In this document: one piece after another, positions 21,670 to 23,501 of the stretch
Numbering within the stretch: position 1 is the first letter of the stretch
How the letters are laid out: every line of letters starts with the position of its first letter
Source: Mycoplana azooxidifex
Lineage (GTDB): Bacteria; Pseudomonadota; Alphaproteobacteria; Rhizobiales; Rhizobiaceae
NCBI RefSeq assembly: GCF_014196765.1
Contig: NZ_JACIEE010000006.1
Coordinates: 62,001-126,000, forward strand
Direction of reading: 5' to 3'
Length of the DNA: 64,000 nucleotides
Notes under the pieces: generated by a model
The model's input: only the letters and a program-made list of their open reading frames with translations
The model's database searches: none
What the model was told of the DNA's origin: nothing
Program-made: the position numbers and the translations under genes

Positions 21670-22202
21670 CGCATCCTCCCCGTTGCCTGCCGGCAGCATG
21701 ATGCCGCACATGTGATTCACGCAAGCCTTTGTCGGTCCCATGCCAATTCCGGGCAGGTTATGGCGCGCAACTCGCCATTCCAGCCTGCCGCATGGCCGAT
21801 TCCCGCCCTGTCAACAGATGCGAAGACGCATGGCGGACGCGACGGTGAAAAGCCGAAATGGCACAAAATCTCATTTGTCTGATGATATTTCCGCGATTGA
21901 CCGACATTTACCCTTGAAAAGCGGTTTCCGAGAGGGCAAATGCGGGCGGATCATCGTCGGATCTCACGTCAGGCGATCGATCGGACGGGCATGCAGGCAG
22001 CGCATATCATCCATGCTTATATTGCACTGCACAAAACCGATTTGTCGGACTATATTGTGAACATCGGATCGGGAATGATCGAGAACAAAGAGACTAGGGC
22101 GCAGACATCTTCTGCTGACCGGCTCTTGAAAAAGTGGAAGCGGCCAACCACCTGAACCCTGGTTCAGAAAAGGCCCGGCAGTCGAAAGACCGCTGACAGA
22201 AT
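21670..22202. other. Non-coding region upstream of the sRNA pair
   Basis: No gene is supported. It is more AT-rich than its surroundings between about 21850 and 22130. A perfect palindrome CTGAACCCTGGTTCAG lies at 22152-22167, about 45 bases before the first RNA hairpin, and could be an operator or a 5' RNA hairpin. ATTGCACTGCAC at 22021-22032 resembles sequences upstream of the second DUF1127 gene. Confidence 0.5.
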
Positions 22203-22325
22203 TCGGACCGGCGCACTCCTCCTCCCAGCGCTTGTCCGATACGATTGGCAACAACTCCTCCTCCCAGTTGCCAATCATCCCAAATGACGCCCGCCGGACC
22301 TCCTCCCCTGGCGGGCGTTATTGCG
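22203..22325 (+). ncRNA. CCTCCTCCC-loop small RNA, copy 1 (alpha-r14/CcsR-like)
   Basis: Three consecutive hairpins each expose an anti-Shine-Dalgarno loop. Hairpin 1 pairs CGGAC/GTCCG and GCGC/GCGC around ACTCCTCCTCCCA (22204-22238). Hairpin 2 is a perfect 10-bp stem GATTGGCAAC/GTTGCCAATC (22243-22276) with CTCCTCCTCCC in the loop. Hairpin 3 is a GC-rich stem ACGCCCGCC/GGCGGGCGT (22287-22318) with CCTCCTCCCC in the loop, followed by a T-rich tail, so it doubles as terminator. This architecture matches known rhizobial and Rhodobacter trans-acting sRNAs that mask ribosome sites of mRNAs. Transcript ends are estimated. Confidence 0.82.
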
Positions 22326-22484
22326 TTTACGGACCAACTCCCAAGTCCCATCACGGCAATACCGCAAGAAATCAACGTCCTAGTCGGCGCTCTTTGCGTA
22401 ATTATTATGCATCTGCACAGGCGCGCCGCCCGTCGTTTGGGCAAGCCATCCGCTTCTTGCATGCGTGATATTCAGCATGGGCGC

Positions 22485-22513
22485 TTCACCGCGATCAGGA
22501 CCGGCGCTATAAG
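22485..22513 (+). promoter_or_regulatory. Possible promoter of the second sRNA
   Basis: TATAAG at 22508-22513 is a reasonable -10 hexamer placed about 10 bases before the second RNA. An 18-base spacer separates it from CTTCAC at 22484-22489, a weak -35. The weak -35 suggests activator dependence or an alternative sigma factor. Tentative. Confidence 0.35.
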
Positions 22514-22520
22514 TTCAACA

Positions 22521-22645
22521 TCAATCGGGTGCGGCACTCCTCCTCCCAGCCAGCCCCGATGCGATTGGCAGCACTCCTCCTCCCAAGTTGCCAATCTGGA
22601 TCGACGCCCGCCGGACCTCCTCCCCCGGCGGGCGTTGTATTTTCC
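22521..22645 (+). ncRNA. CCTCCTCCC-loop small RNA, copy 2 (alpha-r14/CcsR-like)
   Basis: A diverged duplicate of the RNA at 22203-22325, with the same three-hairpin plan. Hairpin 1: ATCGGG/CCCGAT plus GGC/GCC around ACTCCTCCTCCCA. Hairpin 2: GATTGGCA/TGCCAATC (22563-22596) around ACTCCTCCTCCCA. Hairpin 3: ACGCCCGCCGG/CCGGCGGGCGT (22604-22635) around ACCTCCTCCC, then TGTATTTT as a terminator tail. Stem bases differ from copy 1 with compensatory changes while all three loops are kept, which is strong evidence of selection on structure. Confidence 0.85.
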
Positions 22646-22727
22646 CTTCCCCTCGACATGGCTGCAATCCGAACGAAGCACAAATCTGGTGCTCAATTCG
22701 TAGCCAGTCCCTGCATGAGATTTTCGC

Positions 22728-22757
22728 TTGACATGCGCATATTGCATAACTGCCATT
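22728..22757 (+). promoter_or_regulatory. Candidate promoter/activator region of first DUF1127 gene
   Basis: A consensus -35 TTGACA lies at 22728-22733, but no good -10 follows at 16-18 bases. Directly downstream is ATTGCATAACTGCCATT (22741-22757), which resembles ATTGCATAGCAGCTGCATT upstream of the second DUF1127 gene. A shared activator site is a reasonable reading; it is not proven. Confidence 0.4.
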
Positions 22758-22862
22758 CGGCTTTATCTCTGTAATGCAGGCCCTCGGCATCGTATATTCC
22801 GGTCATCAGATGAACGCCGGCGCTGATTGGTAATGCCGGCCCCACCACGAAGGGTAACGGAC

Positions 22863-23006
22863 ATGAACATCTCTCGCTCGTTCAACACCTGGCGCAAGTA
22901 TCGTCAGACCATCACCGAACTCGGCCGCATGAGCGACCGCGAACTGCACGACCTCGGCATCGGCCGCTCGGACATCCGCCGCGTTGCCCGCGACGCCGTC
23001 CGGTAA
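22863..23006 (+). CDS. DUF1127 small protein, copy 1
   Basis: A 47-residue Arg-rich basic protein with the DUF1127 core LGRMSDRELHDLGIGRSDI at about residues 20-38. Related proteins elsewhere in alphaproteobacteria affect sRNA maturation, RNA turnover and phosphate metabolism; some bind RNA. An AGGGTAACGG stretch precedes the ATG. It is followed closely by a strong terminator, so it forms a single-gene unit 218 bases after the second sRNA. It is too short for most ORF filters. Confidence 0.9.
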   Translation: MNISRSFNTWRKYRQTITELGRMSDRELHDLGIGRSDIRRVARDAVR

Positions 23007-23031
23007 TACGCCGACCCCGTCAGGTCCGGCC

Positions 23032-23069
23032 AAACGCCTTCCGGAGAAATCCGGAGGGCGTTTCTTTTT
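23032..23069 (+). terminator. Terminator of first DUF1127 gene
   Basis: AAACGCC-TTCCGG pairs with CCGGA-GGGCGTTT around a short A-rich loop, followed by a run TTTCTTTTT. A classic intrinsic terminator. Confidence 0.85.
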
Positions 23070-23357
23070 GTGGCCTTGTCTTTTTGTGGTCTCGGGATCC
23101 GAGACGCCCTCCGCCTCTGCAGCCCGAAAGAGCCGTCACACAGCATGCGTCCAGCCGTGAAATGCGGCCGCCGCTGCCGCTTCGTAAGTGCTCGTTTTCA
23201 GGCATTGCGCGGGAATGCACACTATTTGTCCATCTAATTGCACAATTGCATAGCAGCTGCATTTTCTTTGCACTGCACCATAACCGGGAGAAGGAGTACA
23301 AGGGTCTCAACAAACGAGGACGACGCCGTCCCGTCAAACTCACCCAGGAGACCTGCC
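23070..23357. promoter_or_regulatory. Leader and promoter region of second DUF1127 gene
   Basis: No gene is supported. From 23220 to 23285 it is AT-rich with several TTGCA words: ATTGCACAATTGCATAGCAG at 23237-23256 and TTTGCACTGCAC at 23267-23278. The block ATTGCATAGCAGCTGCATT (23245-23263) is shared in part with the first DUF1127 promoter. A CAGGAG ribosome site lies at 23345-23350. Confidence 0.45.
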
Positions 23358-23501
23358 ATGAACCCGATCCGCATTGCCAAGAACTGGCTCAGCTACCGCC
23401 GTACCCTCAACGAGCTCGGCAACCTCTCCACCCACACGCTGTCCGACATCGGCCTGACCCGCTACGACATCCGCGGCATCGCTGCCCGTTCCTTCCGCTA
23501 A
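23358..23501 (+). CDS. DUF1127 small protein, copy 2
   Basis: A 47-residue protein, the same length as copy 1, with the core LGNLSTHTLSDIGLTRYDI aligned to that of copy 1. Only part of the sequence is shared, so the duplication is old. The start ATG follows CAGGAG. It has its own terminator at 23557-23583. Role as for copy 1: a probable small RNA- or protein-binding regulator. Confidence 0.9.
   Translation: MNPIRIAKNWLSYRRTLNELGNLSTHTLSDIGLTRYDIRGIAARSFR

Follow-up and report, generated by a model that had tools for sequence, protein, structure and literature searches.

Why do small proteins of the DUF1127 family and RNAs with anti-Shine-Dalgarno (aSD) loops stay neighbours across the alphaproteobacteria? 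We addressed this question at a locus of Mycoplana azooxidifex (Rhizobiaceae; assembly GCF_014196765.1, genome of 5.88 Mb), in a stretch of 64,000 nucleotides (nt) of contig NZ_JACIEE010000006.1 (positions 62,001 to 126,000), hereafter the window, where two small RNAs (sRNAs) of the ar14 family, RNA1 and RNA2, are followed on the same strand by two short DUF1127 genes. The locus is probably a CIN1-type cluster, in which the ar14 RNAs and the short DUF1127 genes would be transcribed separately, largely under the regulator LsrB, which is the same regulator as VtlR under another name. Control through a shared LsrB-type site would offer a simple alternative to physical partnership between RNA and protein, namely co-regulation. 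The name CIN1 was reportedly given by Reinkensmeier and Giegerich in 2015. It denotes short DUF1127 genes associated with CcsR-like sRNAs in alphaproteobacteria (PMC10253847). The window locus is an instance of this association, with the difference that two RNA and two protein genes stand here in apparently separate units.

Two full-length ar14 RNAs in tandem

RNA1 and RNA2 are members of the Rfam family ar14 (RF02344), a kind already known as ar14, NfeR1 or cuckoo RNAs. The covariance model, with a gathering score of 58.8 bits, matched them with 109.6 and 103.7 bits, respectively, and both matches covered model positions 1–123 of 123. A first-pass annotation of the same DNA had described two three-hairpin RNAs of the alpha-r14/NfeR1 group about 315 bases apart, with CUCCUCCC-type loops in all six hairpins and with stems that differ between the copies and still pair. 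Each of these points was borne out. The two RNAs lie 322 bases apart from start to start, and each folds into three hairpins that carry an unpaired CCUCCUCCC motif. Matches to CTCCTCCC occur at all six loops (Table 1), the CUCCUCCC loops of both RNAs were 0.95–1.00 unpaired in the ensemble, and the stem sequences of RNA1 and RNA2 differ with pairing kept in both. The CTCCTCCC count alone was dropped as proof: the whole window holds 8 matches against 3.4 expected, which is weak by itself because 4 of 100 shuffles reach 8. The z-scores of the folds were −9.10 for RNA1 and −5.45 for RNA2, and none of 200 shuffles folded as well for either RNA.

Covariation was then read from an alignment of 40 sequences, made up of 38 of the 60 ar14 matches from relatives and the two window copies. 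For 19 of the 29 predicted pairs at least one sequence had both sides changed with the pair kept, and such compensatory changes were present in all three stems. The covariance check proposed with the first-pass annotation thus supported the three stems, though the weakest pairs, two upper pairs of the first stem, were broken or gapped in 10 and 13 of the 40 sequences. The third hairpin had also been taken for a terminator. This assignment is plausible only: the terminator scan flagged the third hairpin of neither RNA, its loop being longer than the 3–8 nt that the scan allows and its U-run weak.

LsrB/VtlR-like sites at the RNA and DUF1127 genes

In Sinorhizobium meliloti, the nfeR1 promoter carries TGCA-N6-GCAT as a binding sequence for LsrB (PMC10746234), which activates NfeR1 and AbcR1 (PMC10746234, PMC8844928). 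In Agrobacterium tumefaciens, the VtlR box is reported as GCAT-N3-TG-N3-T, and the regulator switches on abcR1 together with atu1667, a gene for a short protein (PMC7486931); Brucella VtlR activates AbcR2 and three DUF1127 genes, including orthologues of atu1667 (PMC12595884). We found that the LsrB and VtlR motifs overlap as one composite, TGCA-N6-GCAT-N3-TG-N3-T. Scored over 11 positions, the composite reached 9 before RNA1, RNA2 and RNA3, the genome's third ar14 copy, and 10 before the first DUF1127 gene. Random 180-nt stretches of the window reach at least 9 of 11 in 1.3%, the scored stretches having been 160–230 nt long.

Sites of this kind at ar14 and DUF1127 genes recur across Rhizobiaceae. 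We aligned the promoters of eight loci (the window's own, six from congeners and one from a near neighbour) together with two more distant loci. The block upstream of RNA1, consisting of TGC-N7-GCAT, TTGCACTGCACA and a −10 element TATATT (22051–22056), was kept in all eight, and in the two more distant loci with small changes. At RNA2, TGCAT-N3-TG-N2-ATTC was kept in the same eight loci with CTATA a few bases ahead of the core, and at the first DUF1127 gene GCAT-N3-TG-CCATTC or close variants were kept in the alignment. For the second DUF1127 promoters, four loci (L038, L039, L041 and L042) were used. An RNA of the NfeR1 type would be expected to have an LsrB-dependent sigma-70 promoter; RNA1 has a candidate site with promoter-like hexamers, and RNA2 a candidate site with a −10-like element. 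The first-pass annotation had treated the genes as separate units, and a conserved upstream site at each of RNA1, RNA2 and the first DUF1127 gene is consistent with that reading; as the terminator scan supports the first DUF1127 gene only, the case for separate transcription would rest on these sites.

Wider counts were obtained from a set of 80 loci, the best 80 of 548 from named genomes, collected with the window's DUF1127 proteins and relatives as queries; some genomes contribute two loci. An ar14 at or above the gathering score was found in 55 of the 80 loci (60 matches), in every case upstream of the DUF1127 gene and on the same strand. The exact LsrB motif was present upstream of 32 of the 60 ar14 matches (shuffle mean 0.62, maximum 4) and of 41 of the 80 DUF1127 genes (mean 1.09, maximum 4), and the exact VtlR box upstream of 71 of the 80 DUF1127 genes (mean 2.11, maximum 6). 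Composite scores of at least 9 of 11 occurred upstream of all 80 DUF1127 genes and of 44 of the 60 ar14 matches, compared with 5 of 79 equal stretches downstream of DUF1127 genes. Because related species are not independent, the motif counts are not probabilities.

The window's genome also holds two copies of abcR (ar15). A LysR gene (Pfam LysR_substrate and HTH_1) lies directly before one copy and an ArsR-like frame, assigned by frame reading only, lies beyond the other; this is the same order as lsrB, abcR1/2 and SMc01226 in S. meliloti (PMC8844928). The composite site scored 10 of 11 at the abcR copy adjoining this lsrB-like gene and 7 of 11 at the other, and this split, one copy with and one without a site, is the expectation from S. 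meliloti and A. tumefaciens. The tandem locus is convenient for the co-regulation question, with promoter blocks kept in eight genomes, the window's included, and the abcR pair as a positive and a negative control.

Two further patterns link RNA and protein genes in pairs. GCAT-N16-TTGCACTGCA has only two exact matches in the genome, before RNA1 and before the second DUF1127 gene, and exact matches to TTGCAT-N3-TG-N2-ATTC occur only before RNA2 and the first DUF1127 gene; either sharing is suggestive only, because each pattern was derived from the two sites that carry it. The sites of RNA2 and the first DUF1127 gene agree at 12 of 17 positions; this likeness was dropped as sole evidence, since by a rough estimate about one chance match is expected per two 100-nt stretches, and the argument for shared sites therefore rests on the published motifs and on conservation.

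Neighbourhood of ar14 and DUF1127 in relatives

We searched 61 genomes of relatives and found ar14 in 45 of them (above the cut-off in 37) and DUF1127 in 56. At least 67 of 103 ar14 copies lay within 1 kb of a DUF1127 match, compared with 0.16 expected from random placement, and at least 33 of the 37 genomes had one or more close pairs; the 1-kb counts are lower bounds, as the DUF1127 rows are incomplete. Among the matches listed, 36 of the 103 copies had no DUF1127 within 1 kb, and the DUF1127 match linked to an ar14 lay upstream on the same strand in 38 cases, downstream on the same strand in 26 and on the opposite strand in 3. The order of RNA before protein, pointed out in the first-pass annotation, is not supported as novel, since relatives have DUF1127 genes on either side of ar14.

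Tandem ar14 genes are not rare as such: 18 of the 37 genomes have a pair of copies separated by less than 700 nt. In the 80-locus set more than one ar14 was found in three loci (L074, L084 and L088), all of the window's genus. Two congeners have three tandem ar14 copies at this locus (G004:C47 and G005:C6; L041 and L042), which indicates that the copy number changes within the genus. In two other genomes four ar14-like units follow closely behind a DUF1127 gene (G033:C45:28034-28528 and G026:C23:266663-267184, the latter with one unit just under the cut-off), an arrangement that resembles the Rhodobacter CcsR operon. RNA3 of the window's genome (G000:C7:145255-145380, minus strand; L054) has a fourth aSD hairpin ahead of its three-hairpin core, and a DUF1127 match faces it at 457 nt; L055, L056 and L057 have four aSD motifs too, with an exact VtlR box ahead.

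For 25 DUF1127 loci of the 80-locus set, the flanking DNA (up to 3 kb) yielded no ar14 match over the gathering score, degenerate RNAs not having been searched for. Six of the 25 are records named Agrobacterium, and the 25 include L087, L090, L096, L098, L100, L102, L103, L105, L144 and L148. The VtlR box was kept at 24 of these 25 DUF1127 genes. This bears on an explanation to which we give an even chance, that linkage reflects shared regulation or ancestry only, the RNAs and proteins being switched on together and acting on unrelated targets. LsrB co-regulation could explain the neighbourhood of ar14 and DUF1127, common LsrB-type sites being a sufficient reason for it, and retention of the box at genes lacking a detected ar14 agrees with this. 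Order and distance, however, vary by clade, yet the linkage persists, perhaps beyond what shared regulation would need.

DUF1127 proteins and a possible partnership with the RNAs

Both DUF1127 open reading frames (ORFs) of the window match PF06568 above the Pfam cut-off of 23.3 bits (Table 1), and both lie, as first annotated, behind the RNAs on their strand. Their length fits the 47–48 amino acids (aa) of the Agrobacterium short DUF1127 proteins (SDP type), a likeness in length only. Whether DUF1127 proteins bind RNA or protein is disputed. CcaF1 of Rhodobacter binds RNA and promotes CcsR maturation (PMC10253847). The short DUF1127 proteins of A. tumefaciens, on the other side, act via PhoR binding, Salmonella YjiS is reported to show no RNA binding, and CcaF1 complements the PhoR-related defect of the Agrobacterium proteins (PMC12501420). 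The window proteins may be either RNA binders like CcaF1 or protein binders like those of Agrobacterium, between which sequence cannot decide.

A rival explanation is a single ribonucleoprotein system as in Rhodobacter, in which the DUF1127 proteins would attach to the ar14 RNAs and direct how these mature, as in a removal of the RNA1 leader by RNase E. The precedent of CcaF1 and the close ar14–DUF1127 pairs in most ar14-bearing genomes speak for it, and at least 22 ar14 copies, spread over 17 genomes, begin no more than 120 nt after the end of a same-strand DUF1127 domain match, which fits a shared transcript; the long predicted leader of RNA1 (below) might also need trimming. The PhoR and YjiS findings cited above point the other way, as do the 25 of 80 close DUF1127 loci with no detected neighbouring ar14, because they indicate that a DUF1127 protein can be kept without an adjacent RNA. 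On balance we regard such a system as unlikely.

A predicted leader of RNA1

The ar14 core of RNA1 begins 142 nt beyond its −10 element. If transcription starts about 7 nt past this element, as we assumed, RNA1 would have a leader of about 133 nt. NfeR1 has been described as 123 nt (PMC10746234) or 115 nt (PMC8844928) long, so that such a 5′ part would be either specific to the clades that carry it or removed by processing. A promoter motif was present in 51 of 61 upstream stretches, with leader lengths of 20–133 nt and a median of 57 nt. The 44 distinct leaders had a mean fold z-score of −2.69, while control stretches of the same size gave 0.19 (upstream of the site) and −0.09 (downstream of the RNA); leaders of relatives thus hold excess structure. 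Within the window's genus the values were −2.35 for Rhizobium sp. GN54, −4.03 for R. subbaraonis and −4.35 for R. rhizolycopersici (listed under the name Mycoplana rhizolycopersici, Rhizobiaceae). A hairpin of at least four pairs within 6 nt of the core ended all 44 leaders and all 27 left after thinning; in shuffled leaders this was the case for a mean of 18.8 and a maximum of 25 of 27. In the window's genus compensatory changes occurred at a few leader pairs, and a few pairs were broken in one or two of the eight sequences. If the leader is transcribed, part of the RNA would lie outside the ar14 model in many species.

The conserved block could also have another role. RNA1 might possess an unrecognised promoter of its own at the ar14 core, with the block at 22028–22056 driving a different product such as a small leader peptide; an ATG similarly placed in several congeners does open a short frame, of 26 aa in the window. 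This frame is not kept across the eight aligned genomes, for which reason the leader was rejected as a conserved small ORF, and neither by eye nor by scan was a −10-like element found just ahead of the core. We consider this explanation quite improbable.

Proposed regulation and points against it

In the mechanism that we propose, LsrB would act at the composite site upstream of each promoter and thereby turn on RNA1, RNA2 and the first DUF1127 gene. RNA1 would be made as a transcript of about 260 nt, its 5′ part folding into a further domain. The three equivalent unpaired CUCCUCCC loops of each RNA may then pair with purine-rich ribosome-binding sites and block translation, in keeping with the silencing of mRNAs by ar14 RNAs, whose redundant aSD loops pair with translation starts (PMC10746234). 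In S. meliloti the targets are ABC-transporter and ntrB mRNAs, ntrB having been shown by reporter assays (PMC10746234). An RNA of the NfeR1 type would also be expected to be an Hfq-independent transcript. The DUF1127 proteins might act in parallel, by binding RNA like CcaF1 or protein like their Agrobacterium relatives.

A wider generalisation has two parts, which we advance together and only tentatively, at somewhat less than an even chance. Many Rhizobiaceae ar14 RNAs would be longer than the core of 115–123 nt and carry a variable, fast-evolving, structured 5′ domain (20–133 nt, with a hairpin right before the core). In addition, ar14 and the neighbouring DUF1127 gene would be fired together through one composite site of LsrB, a redox-sensing LysR regulator, so that RNA and protein would respond as a pair and converge on nutrient uptake.

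Several observations weigh against the proposed mechanism. The second DUF1127 gene has no composite site, its 7 of 11 being background level, and the scoring in the genome left out the other three DUF1127 genes. Upstream of ar14 the VtlR box was found in only 5 of 60 cases (shuffle mean 1.27, maximum 5), a weak enrichment, and an exact LsrB or VtlR motif preceded the DUF1127 gene in only 7 of 14 loci of relatives, mostly those with DUF1127 upstream of ar14. The promoter consensus scan gave 1 site against 0.7 expected, and the terminator scan found none after RNA1, RNA2 or the second DUF1127 gene. The NtrC site TGC-N11-GCA of S. meliloti nfeR1, which according to the S. meliloti paper is limited to plant symbionts (PMC10746234), was not found in 21880–22200 of the window. 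In S. meliloti, northern blots gave reliable detection for just one ar14 copy out of six. The window's own RNA1 leader is among the weaker folds, with a z-score of −1.06. Finally, the pairing with ntrB, at −12.2 kcal/mol, was matched by 7 of 49 background start regions, these being the starts of mechanical ORFs in the window rather than of annotated genes.

As 7 of the 49 background starts pair with the loops as well as ntrB does, ntrB is a weak candidate for a specific target and no target is claimed. The neighbouring DUF1127 starts were rejected as loop targets too, their pairing being unremarkable, since 26 and 30 of the 49 background regions do no worse.

Relation to known systems

The closest known system is ar14/NfeR1 of S. 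meliloti (Smr14C2, SmelC397; cuckoo RNAs; RF02344), which has the same three hairpins with three identical open CCUCCUCCC loops, the same hypervariable pairing stems, several copies per genome and an LsrB-type site. It differs from the window in that here the copies stand in tandem 322 nt apart, the RNA1 promoter-like block lies about 140 nt upstream of the core, and no NtrC-like site was seen in the region named above. The LsrB/VtlR regulon (AbcR1/AbcR2, NfeR1, Atu1667 and the Brucella DUF1127 genes) has binding motifs that the window sites resemble and takes in the same two kinds of target, an sRNA and a short DUF1127 gene, whereas here these putative targets are side by side and the two published motifs form one overlapping composite. 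The parallel with the CcsR1-4/CcaF1 operon of Rhodobacter sphaeroides, drawn in the first-pass annotation, is correct, since there too an array of CUCCUCCC-type sRNAs is linked to a small DUF1127 gene (PMC10253847). In that operon the sRNAs follow the protein gene and share with it a transcript from an RpoHI/RpoHII promoter; in the window the RNAs come first and have LsrB-type sites of their own.

The association of DUF1127 with CUCCUCCC RNAs is not new, having been published as the CIN1 locus. Also in print are ar14 itself, its aSD loops, the LsrB control of NfeR1, and the VtlR control of DUF1127 genes, in Brucella jointly with an AbcR sRNA. Two proposals are possibly unreported, LsrB control exerted jointly on an ar14 and its DUF1127 neighbour and a leader with structure of its own: we found no mention of ar14/NfeR1 in the accessible parts of the papers found to treat DUF1127 with LsrB, and no paper joining DUF1127 and NfeR1, in a search outside which most subscription papers lay.

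Layout of the locus

The features of the locus are collected in Table 1. The next gene after the second DUF1127 gene is trmFO.

Table 1. Features of the ar14–DUF1127 locus, in window positions.
Feature	Position	Strand	Remarks
LsrB/VtlR-like composite site before RNA1	21992..22014	+	TGCA-N6-GCAT exact; 9/11 composite positions
GCAT-N16-TTGCACTGCA element before RNA1	22002..22031	+	exact match
RNA1 promoter-like hexamers, TGCACA-17-TATATT	22028..22056	+	kept in congeners
Predicted 5′ leader of RNA1	22065..22197	+	start assumed; own fold z −1.06
RNA1, ar14 core, three hairpins	22198..22323	+	aSD loops 22219, 22258, 22300
LsrB/VtlR-like site before RNA2	22449..22471	+	GCAT-N3-TG-N3-T exact; 9/11
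RNA2 −10-like element, CTATAA	22507..22512	+	7 bases ahead of ar14 core
RNA2, ar14, three hairpins	22520..22640	+	aSD loops 22540, 22577, 22617
LsrB/VtlR-like site before first DUF1127 gene	22734..22756	+	10/11
First short DUF1127 gene, 47 aa	22863..23006	+	PF06568, 57.2 bits
Intrinsic-terminator-like stem-loop past first DUF1127 gene	23032..23063	+	terminator scan
GCAT-N16-TTGCACTGCA element before second DUF1127 gene	23248..23277	+	second exact copy
Second short DUF1127 gene, 47 aa	23358..23501	+	PF06568, 53.4 bits

A different RNA was also observed near short DUF1127 genes: in two Rhizobium genomes 6S RNA lies within 3 kb of such a gene (L106:2403-2561 and L147:194-352).

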